This document shows, piece by piece, positions 11,930-23,651 of a DNA stretch of 23,651 nt (position 1 is its first letter; the number at the start of each line of letters is the position of its first letter). The notes under the pieces were generated by a model. That model was given only the letters and a program-made list of their open reading frames with translations, was not told the DNA's origin and made no database searches. Source of the DNA: Desulfobacterales bacterium (GTDB lineage Bacteria > Desulfobacterota > Desulfobacteria > Desulfobacterales > JAFDCJ01); assembly GCA_020345785.1 (NCBI GenBank), contig CP070771.1:5208838-5232488 (forward strand). The letters are read 5' to 3'. The position numbers and the translations under genes were made by a program.

Positions 11930-12075
11930 CGGAACCCGTGATGCGAAACCCGCAACCCGTAACCCGTAACCCTGAAGACTTAACCCGGAACCCGTAACTC
12001 GCAACCCGTAACGCGAACACGTAACCCGTAACCCGCAACGCGCTAAACGAAACGCGCCACGCGAAACTCGAATCA
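11930..12075. repeat. Heptamer array B (21 units)
   Basis: Twenty 7-bp units and one 6-bp unit, consensus CGTAACC with frequent CGCAACC and CGGAACC variants, keep phase for 146 bp. The last unit reaches the ilvN Shine-Dalgarno (12075-12079). There are no spacers, so this is not CRISPR. Confidence 0.85.
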
Positions 12076-18656: not shown

Positions 18657-19586
18657 TTAGTTTGCATATTCCAAGTTCTCTGATTTATTCCCCGAACGCT
18701 TCTTAATCGCATTTACCTTGGCCTCCAGGTTTAGCAGATAGGCCGCCTCGATTTGCTTAAGTCCTTTGACAGGATCGTATTCAATCGCCTTTATCCGCGA
18801 TATAACTTTCTGCACATCACCGCCTTCTTCGATCAGGGAAGTCTCAACTTGGTTTAAAAAACGCCGGCAGTCAGCCATTGATTTTTGGAAATACTTTTTC
18901 GCGTCCTGACCGGTAAGGGCGTATCTGTGCCCCAAACAAAGAACTTCATATTCGACTTCGCTTAAGCGGCGCATGGATTCGAAATATTGGTCGTAGTCCA
19001 CCAGTGCCTCGGAGACAATATAACCGGTGGCATCCGGTATCCCCGCGGCTTCAGAGCAAAACAGCACCTTTTTCTGAAGGATGAAATAACTCAGACAATC
19101 CCGGGTGTGTCCAGGTGTTTCAAATGCATGGACTGTTACATCTGCTGACAATTCCAATAATTGTCCGTCTTTTAGGGTGACATCAACCTCAAAAGGTTCA
19201 AAGGGATCGAATTGGGCCAATTCAACCCCGATGCTTTTGACCATCTTTTCAGCAGCATGAGTTAACTCACCGATCAGAGCAAGGGCATTGGGGCGGCCGA
19301 GCACCTTTTTCACTCCTTCGGAAGCCACCACTTTAAGCGTCGGAAAGGATTTCTTGAGCACAGCAACCGATCCGCAATGGTCGAAATGAGAATGACTCAA
19401 AAAACAATAGTGAAGATCGCGATTGCCCAGTATCGCCCTTATTCCGTCAGTATATATCCTGCCGAGAAACGCCAGTCCGGCATCAAAAATGGCGGGTTTC
19501 TCACCGTCAAGAAGATAAACCGGCATCGCGGGTGTGCCCACCATGTACAAGTCGTCGATAATTTTACCCGAATCACCAATGATCAT
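18657..19586 (-). CDS. Metallo-beta-lactamase-fold hydrolase
   Basis: This is a 309-residue soluble protein of the MBL superfamily; the substrate is unknown. The zinc motif HSHFDH is at H65, H67, D69, H70, with further ligands H160 (ETPGHTRD) and H220 (LGHRYALTG). At the usual bridging-Asp position the sequence reads CSEAAG, so E179 may replace Asp. The N-terminus (DDLYMVGTPAMPVYLLDG) is typical of glyoxalase-II-like or thioesterase-like members. The C-terminal part (about 225-309) is helical and charged. The ATG at 19586-19584 has only a weak GAGAG upstream. It lies upstream of pyrD in the same direction, but I see no functional link. Confidence 0.85.
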   Translation of the reverse strand: MIIGDSGKIIDDLYMVGTPAMPVYLLDGEKPAIFDAGLAFLGRIYTDGIRAILGNRDLHYCFLSHSHFDHCGSVAVLKKSFPTLKVVASEGVKKVLGRPNALALIGELTHAAEKMVKSIGVELAQFDPFEPFEVDVTLKDGQLLELSADVTVHAFETPGHTRDCLSYFILQKKVLFCSEAAGIPDATGYIVSEALVDYDQYFESMRRLSEVEYEVLCLGHRYALTGQDAKKYFQKSMADCRRFLNQVETSLIEEGGDVQKVISRIKAIEYDPVKGLKQIEAAYLLNLEAKVNAIKKRSGNKSENLEYAN

Positions 19587-20023: not shown

Positions 20024-20072
20024 ATTTTCTTTTTTAATCAGATCGATCGTTCTATTGGCCGGTGGCGGTACT

Positions 20073-20100
20073 GGCACCTGAAACCTGACACCTGACACCT
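20073..20100. repeat. Heptamer array F (4 units)
   Basis: Four 7-bp units of the GACACCT / GAAACCT type end 11 nt before the ATG of the radical SAM gene. This leaves no recognisable Shine-Dalgarno for that gene. Confidence 0.7.
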
Positions 20101-20111
20101 CCATAAAATTG

Positions 20112-22004
20112 ATGACCCAAACAACTAAAAAACCAAAAGCGGTTGCTTTAATTTCTACCCCCTGGCCCCTTTACAACCGTCCTTCGATTCAGCTGGGCGC
20201 TCTCAAAGCCTATCTCCAATTAGAGCATCCGGAGGTGCGGGTGGACGCCCGCCATTTTTATTTGAAACTGGCCGAATCTATCGGATATAAACGCTATCAG
20301 ATGATATCGGAGCGCACCTGGCTGGCGGAAAGCATCTATGCCGCCCTGCTCTTTCCGGAGCGTTTTAAAGTAATTGAAAGGCTGTTTGATCGTGAAGTTC
20401 GCTTAAAACCCGAATTAAAGGAAGACGGACTGGAAAAAATTGTGACCCTTGCAAAAAAGGCAACAGACGCTTTTATCAGCAGCCTGCGCGGGGAAGACTA
20501 CATGCTGGCCGGTTTCTCGGTTTCTCTCTGCCAGCTTACGTCCACCCTGTACTTTATCAAGCGCATCAAACAAAAGTTCCCCGATCTTATCATTGTCATT
20601 GGCGGCTCAACTTTTTCGGGCACGGCTGCAGGGAAATTATTTGAATTCTTCCCTGAAGTTGATTTTGTAGTAAACGGCGAGGGCGAACTGCCTTTGAGTC
20701 AATTGGTCGGCTGCTTGAAAGCGTCCTCTGATCCGGGTAATTTACCCTCCCTCAAGGGGGTCATAACGCCAACATCGTCTGGTAACGGCGACGGTAGAGA
20801 TAACTTCAATCAACTGAATAGTCTGAACAAACTCCCGCCGCCGAACTACGATGATTATTTTGCCTTGCTTAAATCATTTCGGCAGGCCAATGTTTTCTTC
20901 CCCGTTCTACCGGTTGAAACATCACGCGGCTGCTGGTGGCAGAAAACGATGGCACCCGGCAGGACAACCTCAGATAATCCTAAACGTTCCGCCGGCTGTG
21001 CCTTTTGCAATCTGAACTTACAGTGGCGGGGATATCGTCACAAAGATCCGGCCCGCGTGGTCAATGAAATCGATCATCTGACCGGCAAGTTCCAGACGCT
21101 CGCGGTATCCATCGTGGACAATGTTCTGCCAAGGAAATCTGCCAGAGAATTATTCAAGAAAGTGAGCAACTTGAAAAAGGATCTCCATTTTTTTGCAGAG
21201 ATCAGGGCCGACACACCGGCGTCGGAGTTGGAAGTCATGAGGGACGCCGGGATGCAGGAGCTGCAAATCGGCATCGAAGCACTGAGCACGTCCCTGCTGC
21301 TAAAGCTCCACAAAGGTACCAGTGCAATCCAGAATCTTGAAGTCATGCGCAACTGCGAGGCACTGGGTATCGCAAACCGTTCAAATCTGATCCTTCATTT
21401 TCCGGGAAGCGATGAACAGGATGTTGCCGAAACACTTCGCAATCTTGACTTCGCCCTGCCCTTTCGCCCGCTTCAGACCGTGAACTTCTGGCTTGGGCTG
21501 GGAAGTCCGGTGTGGCAAAATCCCACGGCCTACGGGATTAAAGCAGTCTTCAACCATCCCAATTGGTCCCGCCTTTTCCCACCCGGAATTTCTCGATCCA
21601 TGGCGTTTATGATCCAGGCCTACCGTGGGGACCTCGGCTTCCAGCAAAAAATCTGGCAGCCGGTCAAAGAGAAAGTCACCTCATGGCAAAAAACGTATAC
21701 CGGACTCCAACACGGACCGCTATATTCACCTATATTGAGTTTACGCGACGGTCGCGAATTTTTAATCATAAAACAGCGGCAGTATCAGGCCGATTCGATA
21801 AAGCACCGTCTGGTTGGAACATCTAGGCTGATCTATCTTTTCTGTATGCAGCGTCGTTCTCTTACACATATTCGAAGCCAGTTTCCGTCTTTTGCCGAAG
21901 ACAAAATCGTTGCATTTTTAAAAATGATGGTCGATAAAAAGTTGATGTTTGAAGAAAAGGAAAATTATCTGAGTCTTGCGGCTCCTAAGAAGCCGGGGAA
22001 ATGA
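20112..22004 (+). CDS. B12-binding radical SAM protein, RiPP C-methyltransferase type
   Basis: The 630-residue protein opens with VALISTPWPLYNRPSIQLG, a style typical of the radical SAM proteins annotated as RiPP-maturation C-methyltransferases. A cobalamin-binding-like domain (about 30-230) ends in IVIGGSTFSG and FVVNGEGE. The radical SAM core starts at ETSRGCWW. The cluster cysteines would be C274, C296 and C299, spaced C-x21-C-x2-C, where relatives as I recall them have about C-x7-C-x2-C. A C-terminal PqqD/winged-helix-like part (about 540-625) follows. I chose the ATG at 20112 over the TTG at 20109; neither has a Shine-Dalgarno. No precursor peptide is evident, so the substrate is unknown. 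A selenoprotein-like MerB homologue follows 104 nt later. Confidence 0.82.
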   Translation: MTQTTKKPKAVALISTPWPLYNRPSIQLGALKAYLQLEHPEVRVDARHFYLKLAESIGYKRYQMISERTWLAESIYAALLFPERFKVIERLFDREVRLKPELKEDGLEKIVTLAKKATDAFISSLRGEDYMLAGFSVSLCQLTSTLYFIKRIKQKFPDLIIVIGGSTFSGTAAGKLFEFFPEVDFVVNGEGELPLSQLVGCLKASSDPGNLPSLKGVITPTSSGNGDGRDNFNQLNSLNKLPPPNYDDYFALLKSFRQANVFFPVLPVETSRGCWWQKTMAPGRTTSDNPKRSAGCAFCNLNLQWRGYRHKDPARVVNEIDHLTGKFQTLAVSIVDNVLPRKSARELFKKVSNLKKDLHFFAEIRADTPASELEVMRDAGMQELQIGIEALSTSLLLKLHKGTSAIQNLEVMRNCEALGIANRSNLILHFPGSDEQDVAETLRNLDFALPFRPLQTVNFWLGLGSPVWQNPTAYGIKAVFNHPNWSRLFPPGISRSMAFMIQAYRGDLGFQQKIWQPVKEKVTSWQKTYTGLQHGPLYSPILSLRDGREFLIIKQRQYQADSIKHRLVGTSRLIYLFCMQRRSLTHIRSQFPSFAEDKIVAFLKMMVDKKLMFEEKENYLSLAAPKKPGK

Positions 22005-22066
22005 GCAGCTGGGAAGTTGGGATGCGGGAAGGCTGGGAAGATAGAAGGCTGGGAGGCTGGAAGGCA
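22005..22066. repeat. Heptamer-like array G
   Basis: Degenerate GCTGGGA / AGGCTGGGA units of 7 and 9 bp start at once after the radical SAM stop and fill most of the gap to the MerB-like gene. Confidence 0.6.
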
Positions 22067-22108
22067 TTCGCAATATTGCGGAGTAATTAAAACACAAAGG
22101 AGAAACAA

Positions 22109-22813
22109 ATGGCCGGGTCCACGAATCTGGATCGAATCTTCCACCTGATAATGATGCGTATGGTCAAAACTGGTCAGGCGCCGCACTTCACCGAAATTGC
22201 AGCAGAGCTGAAAATCTCGATGGAGGAAGGCCGCCGGGCTTTGCATGAGCTTTTTGGAGCAGGTATTCCAGGGTGGCTGTTTCCAAATACCGATCTTATC
22301 GTTTCCTTTGCACCGTTTAACAATCTTCCTACCCAGTATCGCGTCACTGTCGATGGTGAGCAAAAATGGTTCGCCCAGTGAGGATTTGAATCGCTGGCGG
22401 TCTGCTGGCTGTTTCCTGGAAAAAACGTTCAGATCGATGCCCCGTGTCTGGATTGCGGGAAGCAGATTAAATTAGTAATGCGGGATGGTAAGGTCCTCAA
22501 CGCGGAGCCGGTGGGATTGATGGGATACGTGGCGGTGCCGTTTGGAAAATGGTTCGAAGATATCCCTTATGCCTGAGCCACCATGAATCTCTTCCGGTCG
22601 GAAGAGCACATCCGCAATTGGCCCGGTTTTGAGTCTGGTACCGAAGAGGGAATCGTGCCCCTTGATGATCTGGTGAAACTATTTTCCGGCAGTTACTTTC
22701 GAAATCGCTTAGACTCGGACTGGGTATCCTGCAGCCGAGAGTATGCCCGGGAGATGGTCAAAACATTCAAAGAAATCGGAAAAACCGGACCTTTCTGGCA
22801 GCGATCGCGCTGA
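22109..22813 (+). CDS. MerB-like (alkylmercury lyase family) protein with two predicted selenocysteines
   Basis: Read through two in-frame UGA codons (22379, 22574), this is one 234-residue protein. An N-terminal winged helix (about 1-75) resembles the MerB helix-turn-helix domain. The core reads WFAQ-U91-GFESLAV, then APC113LDC116G, then PYA-U156-ATMNLFRS. Against E. coli R831b MerB, U91 falls on catalytic C96 (YAWCALDTL), E94 on D99, C113 near C117, and U156 on C159 (FCCHVHFFAS). Each UGA is followed by a SECIS-like hairpin. There is no frameshift and no UAA/UAG inside. AAGGAG lies 6 nt before the ATG. MerB cleaves carbon-mercury bonds with these thiols; selenols would bind mercury more strongly. 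The family is clear, but the true substrate is unproven, and no merA or merR is present. The final UGA is followed by UAA two codons later and by no SECIS. Confidence 0.85.
22388..22414 (+). other. SECIS-like hairpin 1 (for UGA at 22379)
   Basis: CTGGC (22394) pairs with GCTGG (22404) around the loop GGTCT (22399-22403). The stem extends outward to 22388/22414 with one C-U mismatch and several G-U pairs. The loop begins 17 nt after the UGA. E. coli fdhF, from memory, has a GGUCU loop 18 nt after its UGA. Confidence 0.78.
22589..22606 (+). other. SECIS-like hairpin 2 (for UGA at 22574)
   Basis: CTCTTCC (22589-22595) pairs perfectly with GGAAGAG (22600-22606) around a GGTC tetraloop. The loop begins 19 nt after the UGA. 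It codes in frame for LFRSEE, so the hairpin is embedded in conserved MerB-family sequence. Confidence 0.85.
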
Positions 22814-22839: not shown

Positions 22840-23580
22840 TCACAGCGTGAAGGAAAATGAATCACCCGGATGCAGCAATTTACCCTTGATGTCGGGTGCC
22901 TGCTTTTTGAGTTGGTCTAAAAATTCATGGCCTTCGTCGAATCGATAGTGCATGGGAATGGCAACTCGGACTCCCAGCCAGCGGGCCGCAAGGGCGGCTT
23001 CATCCGGGTACAGCTCGGTTAAAGGCTGACCGTGGACGTCGACGCCGCCGACACCCAACATGGCCACATGGGGCCGGTAAAGTTCACCGTAAAGCTTGAT
23101 GTCGCTGTGGATCGAGGTGTCGCCGCCGAAAAATACCCGTTCGCCGGTTGCAAAGGTGAGCAAGTAGCTCAACGGCTGGGCGTTGATAAAACCTCGCGCT
23201 GTTTTGCCAAATGACAGATGCCGGGCGGGCAATGCCTTGACTTTGACGTCTGCGAAGACATACTGGACGCCGGAAACCATATGATAGATGCGATCCTCGG
23301 GAATACCGGCCTCCTCGAGCGCACGAAATTTTGTGGCCACATCGCATACCAGAATCGCATCCGAGATTTTCATGATATCGAAGGCCTGACCGACGTGATC
23401 GGTTGCCGTGTGCGTCACCAGGAGGAGGTGTAGGTTTTGAAAAGCCTCAGGCTTTTCAGCGCCGGGAGGAATACCGTCCTTTGGGTCCCCGCTGAGCATT
23501 GGATCTAACAGCATGGTTGTCCCCTCTTCGGTCGACAGTTGAAATGCCGTCCAGCCAAGATAACGAATGTTGATTGTCAT
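22840..23580 (-). CDS. Metallo-beta-lactamase-fold hydrolase (UPF0173/UlaG-like)
   Basis: This 246-residue protein of the MBL superfamily is of the type annotated as UPF0173 metal-dependent hydrolases; its substrate is unknown. The expected HxHxDH motif reads HTATDH (H57, A59, D61, H62), so the second His is Ala. Other ligands look present: H121 (ARHLSF), D154 (FGGDTS) and H211 (PMHYR). I chose the ATG at 23580-23578 because AAGGAG sits 6 nt before it and the protein then begins MTINIRYLGW as in relatives. A start at 23622 would add 14 unconserved residues. It is convergent with the MerB-like gene, 26 nt apart, so shared regulation is not implied. Confidence 0.85.
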   Translation of the reverse strand: MTINIRYLGWTAFQLSTEEGTTMLLDPMLSGDPKDGIPPGAEKPEAFQNLHLLLVTHTATDHVGQAFDIMKISDAILVCDVATKFRALEEAGIPEDRIYHMVSGVQYVFADVKVKALPARHLSFGKTARGFINAQPLSYLLTFATGERVFFGGDTSIHSDIKLYGELYRPHVAMLGVGGVDVHGQPLTELYPDEAALAARWLGVRVAIPMHYRFDEGHEFLDQLKKQAPDIKGKLLHPGDSFSFTL

Positions 23581-23651
23581 AAGCGGCTCCTTGGTCGATT
23601 CTTCACGCTGATGTTGACCCATCGTTAGGAAAAATCAGCGACCACCAGCAG

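Follow-up and report, generated by a model that had tools for sequence, protein, structure and literature searches.

A predicted MerB-fold protein of a Desulfobacterales bacterium with UGA codons at both metal-binding cysteine positions

The stretch analysed (the window) comprises 23,651 nucleotides of contig CP070771.1 (positions 5,208,838 to 5,232,488) from a Desulfobacterales bacterium. At 22109..22813 on the + strand it carries the coding sequence of a 234-residue MerB-like protein, in which UGA codons occupy the columns of both cysteines that bind the metal in MerB. Starting at the 5′ side, the sequence AGGAG (22098..22102, +), six bases 5′ of the ATG, is a likely ribosome-binding site. 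Translation with UGA read through gives 234 codons, with internal UGA at codons 91 (22379..22381, +) and 156 (22574..22576, +), both predicted to encode selenocysteine (Sec), and a final UGA as the stop (22811-22813, +). The frame contains no further stops and 64 sense codons separate the two internal UGAs, confirming the otherwise intact frame reported in a preliminary description of this DNA. With the standard code the same ATG opens a reading frame of only 90 residues; standard gene finding cuts the gene short because the UGA at codon 91 is read as a stop. A promoter scan of the window found none, and a terminator scan gave a single terminator-like match, which is the first of the hairpins discussed below (1.2 expected by chance).

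The protein matches Pfam PF03243 (MerB) over residues 72-191 with 69.9 bits, above the gathering cut-off of 27. Profile alignment to solved MerB places residue 91 on Cys96, Glu94 (22388..22390, +) on Asp99, Cys113 (22445..22447, +) on Cys117 and residue 156 on Cys159. The preliminary description had assigned the UGA codons to the catalytic Cys96 and Cys159, with glutamate in place of the catalytic aspartate, and had suggested comparison with PF03243; both assignments are borne out by these alignments. Cys113 is invariant across the 31 rows of alignment A1, and glutamate is present at position 94 in at least 90% of them. An AlphaFold2 model, calculated with Cys substituted for Sec, has a mean predicted local distance difference test score of 94.8. 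The predicted structure has the MerB fold, its closest solved relatives are mercury enzymes, and it extends beyond the end of the best MerB alignment at residue 202. The canonical MerB models of NCBIfam score well below their cut-offs (32.4 versus 193 bits for NF009710 and 25.3 versus 200 bits for NF033555), and from the canonical residue set Cys96/Asp99/Cys117/Cys159 only the Cys117 column is kept, the others being UGA, Glu and UGA.

At both sites the in-frame UGA is conserved and aligned with cysteine in homologues, the pattern by which a selenoprotein is recognized. Among 28 related genome loci read in DNA the two columns are TGA/TGA in 15/28 and TGC/TGA in 13/28, so the UGA pair is more than chance; the preliminary description had suggested looking for relatives with cysteine or UGA at these columns. 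The TGA/TGA loci come from Desulfobacterales, Desulfobacteraceae, Desulfarculaceae, Syntrophaceae, Desulfatiglandales, Desulfatitalea, an Olavius symbiont (Delta 1) and Deltaproteobacteria. The TGC/TGA loci come from Nitrospinae, Alphaproteobacteria (3), Rokubacteria (4), Burkholderiales, Chloroflexota, Actinomycetes, Acidimicrobiaceae and, in one case (L018), Deltaproteobacteria.

Wider searches were centred on two reference genomes, G001 (a Desulfobacterales metagenome-assembled genome, that of locus L001) and G019 (Rokubacteria, that of L020). In the class of G001 the gene is matched in 26 of 291 genomes, and all 16 complete close matches are TGA/TGA. Subfamily B (L048, L052 and L053), with ∼30% identity, is also TGA/TGA and keeps aspartate at the +3 position; L048 lies under every NCBIfam cut-off. 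A search with the model of SaoL, a MerB-like selenoprotein, led to a third TGA/TGA subfamily, C (L058, L060, L062 and L063), again with Asp at +3 and scoring 50-55 bits against a cut-off of 140. A single locus passes that cut-off (L056; 165 bits, 1/291 genomes), and combines a first-site cysteine with UGA in the codon-156 column. The phylum of G019 gives 29 matches in 95 genomes, the complete close ones being Cys/TGA except L083, which is TGA/TGA. Among the loci that the search patterns could read there are in total 36 TGA/TGA, 30 Cys/TGA and 6 Cys/Cys, plus two Cys/Cys proteins, and no TGA/Cys combination. The 36 are 35 of 70 pattern-matched loci, the window included, together with L083; L083 and L056 were added to the locus set afterwards. 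Duplicates (L029, L030, L031, L033, L064, L065, L075 and L076) were dropped before counting. Incomplete, frameshifted or pattern-missed loci lie outside the 70 (L045, L047, L054, L055, L057, L059, L061, L079, L080, L082, L084-L086 and L089); L057 and L059 look Cys/Cys by eye, and L045 has UGA at site 1, after which its frame breaks. Three loci in the phylum set of G019 (L088, L090 and L092) are Cys/UGA MerB-like genes; their first site shows a CAID motif, and their second-site stem is similar, with GUAC replacing GGUC. The Rokubacteria locus L024 (= L075) has an in-frame TAG near codon 5; this copy may be damaged, or its real start codon may lie further downstream. A plasmid search returned eight records, of 25-28% identity, annotated as merB, merBA or without a feature, and at such identities there is no sign of the gene travelling on the plasmids of that collection.

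In 13 pairs of relatives the nonsynonymous rate (dN) is lower than the synonymous rate (dS) before, between and after the UGA codons, in every segment with an estimable dS; two outlying results probably reflect misalignment by indels, namely dN 1.08 in the N-terminal segment of L041/L042, for which no dS was estimated, and dN 0.73 with dS 0.76 in the final segment of L020/L021. If the gene were in decay or an artefact, disrupted by two stop mutations, this would fit the 90-residue product of standard calling. It would also fit the 61 database proteins with a first-site cysteine whose sequence stops precisely at the second site, among 120 homologues listed of the 590 that passed the E-value; all figures for database proteins rest on these 120. 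The recurrence of the same codons in 36 loci, the dN below dS after both UGAs and the covarying second hairpin make decay exceedingly improbable.

Among the same 120 listed homologues, 49 (within P0002-P0058) have tryptophan at both sites and two have cysteine at both; there are five single exceptions and three are unreadable. Serine in P0056 and glycine in P0121 at the first site occur in homologues from short contigs whose sequence stops at the second site, and may be real substitutions or sequencing errors. The 49 Trp/Trp entries are the one observation in favour of UGA being read as Trp or Cys, through a recoded genome or a suppressor tRNA. All 49 lie on contigs of only 0.9-2.7 kb, for which reason we infer that the gene caller used table 4; they are probably an artefact of that choice, and may hide selenoproteins in metagenome databases. 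Every locus of the 70 has TGA or a Cys codon in the DNA, and TGG in none. UGA is an ordinary stop codon in this genome, since 5/15 of the window's other main genes terminate in TGA and 0/15 contain it internally, and the two-UGA gene itself writes tryptophan as TGG, with seven such codons. Together with the hairpins and the selA genes described below, this leaves reading as Trp or Cys very unlikely. Both recoding and decay were rejected on stop usage, dN/dS and conservation across independent assemblies.

A tree of 67 rows was computed by a quick method with both ligand columns masked and nine rows omitted as close to others. It requires six changes of the UGA/UGA state, at least five of them forced by the starred branches; the deep order is unsure, with long branches between the subfamilies. 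L043 and L044 (UGA/UGA) are nested among Cys/UGA rows, and the Cys/Cys proteins P0037 and P0047 lie within UGA/UGA and Cys/UGA rows, respectively. Owing to this nesting cysteine and UGA are seen to interchange at both columns, as expected for Sec.

Each UGA is followed by a predicted selenocysteine insertion sequence (SECIS) hairpin. In bacterial SECIS elements a G stands near the start of the loop, which is located some 16-37 bases 3′ of the UGA. Hairpin 1 (22393..22409, +), found by comparative pairing, is GCUGGC-GGUCU-GCUGGC with its loop 17 bases after the UGA; hairpin 2 (22589..22606, +), found by comparative pairing with covariation, is CUCUUCC-GGUC-GGAAGAG with its loop 19 bases after. 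An Rfam search of the window gave nothing at the gathering score and, at E up to 10, one match (E 8.7) taken as chance; the hairpins rest on comparative counts because no known element was returned. In 54 sequences of family A (the family of the gene itself) 98.1% of the 378 cells of hairpin 2 are paired, with 13 cells changed on both sides; 0/500 shuffles reach this level, and slid controls pair 44-61%. Hairpin 1, as GCUGGC-GGUCU-GCUGGC or close forms, is 98.8% paired in 28 UGA rows (3/500 shuffles as high), whereas the same columns in 26 Cys relatives are 52.6% paired (364/500 shuffles as high). The loop pattern [GA]GT[CT] is present at site 1 in 28/28 UGA rows versus 6/26 Cys rows, and at site 2 in 27/28 and 22/26. 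Against synonymous-codon shuffles the UGA rows have a mean z of −1.62 at site 1 (12/28 at p 0.05, 1/28 at 0.01) and the Cys rows −0.07 (2/26 at 0.05), a difference with a Mann–Whitney p of 1e-7; at site 2 the mean z is −2.47 for UGA rows (24/28 at 0.05) and −1.80 for Cys rows (23/26 at 0.05). These hairpin p values are too small because the rows are related. Judged on the window's own sequence, hairpin 2 stands out in a short stretch (z −3.09) but not over 48 bases (z −0.42). The four loci of subfamily C all keep the GGUC loop (4/4), with stems that differ from the consensus on both sides, three of them with Trp for Arg. The comparative evidence for a SECIS-type hairpin thus appears strong at site 2, and at site 1 the prediction is supported by the contrast with the Cys relatives.

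The Sec machinery (selA, selB and tRNA-Sec) was examined in the genomes of relatives that carry the gene. selA is over its cut-off in 28/28 carriers and selB in 25/27, G007 and G012 having only fragments or weak matches; tRNA-Sec is present in 24/27 and was not found in G002, G004 and G008. The base rate is low in the class of G016 (24/190), and both carriers examined there have selA.

Taken together, we consider it likely (probability about 0.7) that the gene encodes a protein of predicted MerB fold in which both metal-binding cysteines are replaced by UGA read as Sec, giving a selenium–selenium site likely to cleave carbon–metal, probably carbon–mercury, bonds. The preliminary description had proposed a diselenol active site resembling that of organomercury lyase. 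The ligand columns, their conservation, the hairpins and the Sec machinery of the relatives all support this, and the lyase activity itself is predicted from sequence. Each UGA would be read by SelB and Sec-tRNA, aided by its hairpin. The two selenolates would take up the organometal cation, and Glu94, in the proton-relay role of MerB Asp99, would protonate the carbon so that the hydrocarbon leaves. The metal would then stay bound by both selenols, to be taken away by thiols or by a partner protein. In such a MerB-like cycle with two selenolates and Glu94, metal release might be expected to be slower.

A number of observations weigh against this interpretation. Hairpin 1 is weak for the window alone (p about 0.10; z −0.08 in the short stretch and −1.72 over 48 bases), overlaps conserved codons, is also present in one Cys relative (L015) and is unconvincing in subfamilies B and C, and in subfamily C the single-sequence p for hairpin 2 is only 0.15-0.30. 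selB is widespread in the class of G001 (258/291 genomes at E 1e-62; 254/291 over cut-off) and selA is found in 83/95 genomes of the phylum set of G019. With base rates this high co-occurrence with the Sec machinery says little in these two sets. At E 1e-62 selB was not found in 2/17 family-A genomes of the former (G106 and G261), and in the latter no selA was found in G390, a possibly incomplete genome that has L077. Glutamate replaces the catalytic aspartate in family A, while subfamilies B and C keep Asp. Two mercury–selenium bonds could trap the product, and the substrate is at present a candidate organometal. No neighbour is widely conserved, gene clusters reaching at most 4/29 loci save for two of open reading frames that overlap the gene itself, and Pfam detected no mer genes among the window neighbours tested. 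MerA is over its cut-off in only 2/27 carriers, both Cys/UGA.

Several of these points would suit a two-Sec scavenger, which would bind Hg(II) or organomercury between its selenols and hold it or hand it on with no cleavage of the carbon–metal bond. Two selenols should bind mercury very tightly, carriers seldom have a full MerA, the gene has no partner conserved across many loci, and the catalytic residue is Glu in family A. MerB without MerA has a product-removal problem, presented as a puzzle in the available part of PMC8261052. The predicted MerB fold and the acid at +3, kept as Asp in subfamilies B and C, argue against a scavenger, as a mere binder would need no acid; we regard it as rather unlikely, and prefer the two-Sec lyase.

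The neighbours of the gene that were tested include radical S-adenosylmethionine (SAM) proteins, metallo-beta-lactamase proteins and enzymes of biosynthesis, with no search aimed at SAO families by name. Genomic context was considered as a clue to function and gave none, the neighbours not being shared widely. Directly upstream is a radical SAM protein with a B12-binding domain (20109-22004, +), which, among the 29 loci, the window shares only with L001 and L002, the two loci closest to it. Two metallo-beta-lactamase-fold proteins lie nearby (18657-19586, −, and 22840-23622, −), the latter directly downstream on the opposite strand. Short tandem repeats are present at 11947-12039, 20071-20100 and 22008-22065, with units AACCCGT, CTGACAC and GCTGGGAAG-like; the third array lies a short way 5′ of the gene.

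The separation from mer genes could also point to a lyase for another organometal or organometalloid, such as tin, lead, arsenic or cobalt-alkyl compounds, in place of mercury. MerB itself binds tin and lead compounds, and NF040728 gives the name organometallic lyase to SaoL, the MerB-like selenoprotein already known. The closest solved relatives are mercury enzymes, and the mercury methylation gene hgcA is enriched in two-UGA genomes; a non-mercury substrate is accordingly among the less probable readings. hgcA is over its cut-off in 13/15 UGA/UGA genomes versus 0/12 of the Cys/UGA genomes searched. In the class of G001 (E 1e-60) it is present in 14/17 family-A genomes versus 110/274 others (Fisher p 8e-4), in 19/24 versus 105/267 for all three subfamilies (p 2e-4), in 5/7 for subfamilies B and C alone (p 0.14), and in 0/4 of the Cys/Cys genomes. 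The set of 17 includes G150 (L045, partial) and leaves out fragments in G272 and G212; the count becomes 13/16 without G150 and 15/19 with the fragments, with Fisher p about 0.001 either way. G001-G003 and G013 enter both counts, and the statistics ignore kinship; we treat the association with two-UGA genes as a lead, kinship being uncorrected.

If both UGAs are Sec, the whole cysteine pair of a metal-handling fold has turned into a Sec pair, apparently more than once. With Cys/Cys, Cys/Sec and Sec/Sec relatives side by side, the family would offer a natural test of the benefit of selenium in carbon–metal chemistry. It is conceivable, if doubtful, that selenium-based MerB enzymes of several lineages are overlooked organomercury lyases, forming a part of methylmercury breakdown beyond known merB that includes hgcA-carrying anaerobes. 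They would escape surveys, since gene calling terminates at the UGAs and residue filters require Cys96, Asp99 and Cys159; a 2026 survey, in its available part, describes discarding merB sequences lacking Cys96, Asp99, Cys117 or Cys159 (PMC12874090). Such UGA-truncated genes would be invisible to residue-filtered merB surveys, which is relevant to an unsettled issue in mercury cycling, and the accessible text of PMC12997803 recognizes demethylation that does not depend on mer. The hgcA enrichment in carriers makes the methylmercury link testable.

In MerB (PF03243; PDB 3f0o, 3f2f and 5c17) mercury is bound by Cys96, Cys159 and Asp99, the bond is cleaved with proton assistance and external thiols take the metal, as set out in excerpts of PMC4525700. 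The two-UGA protein differs in having UGA at both ligand cysteines and Glu for Asp99. SaoL (NF040728) is likewise MerB-like, with Sec at the second site. Its gene lies in the SAO operon. The name is taken from the SAO system, a selenoprotein operon, and SaoL has one Sec, in the motif CU (both from the available part of PMC13188914), while the two-UGA protein has UGA at both columns and scores 40.2 bits with the SaoL model, below the curated cut-off of 140. L056, of SaoL type, differs from the two-UGA protein by Cys in place of UGA at the first site. Cys/UGA members (L015-L027, L066-L074, L077, L078, L081 and L093) belong to the same family, with UGA at the second site and in most cases the same hairpin there; their first site has Cys, and pairing in its hairpin columns does not exceed that of shuffles. 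Literature searches found no description of these members. Other prokaryotic selenoproteins with more than one Sec, the UxxU metal-binding protein (NF041115) and FmdB-like proteins (PMC13188914, in part), carry a UxxU motif, whereas here 65 residues separate the two sites, which would come together in a single active site of lyase type. In the same available part, the 2026 review, which covers 119 selenoprotein families and subfamilies, includes one MerB relative, SaoL with one Sec, and attributes 2-3 Sec to a small subset of the families (PMC13188914). The portion available of a selenoprotein table has one MerB-like entry (PMC9312934), and MerB and mercury terms are absent from the main text of PMC2398784 and PMC5029168. 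No description of a two-Sec MerB was found in the open-access literature, by titles and abstract beginnings, and no NCBIfam model (June 2026) covers the members scanned. The preliminary description knew of no account of the double substitution for MerB; these searches agree for the two-Sec form, and the statement has to be qualified by the published one-Sec SaoL. With a one-Sec MerB-like selenoprotein already known, what appears to be new is the complete replacement of the cysteine pair by a predicted Sec pair, and its recurrence in three subfamilies.
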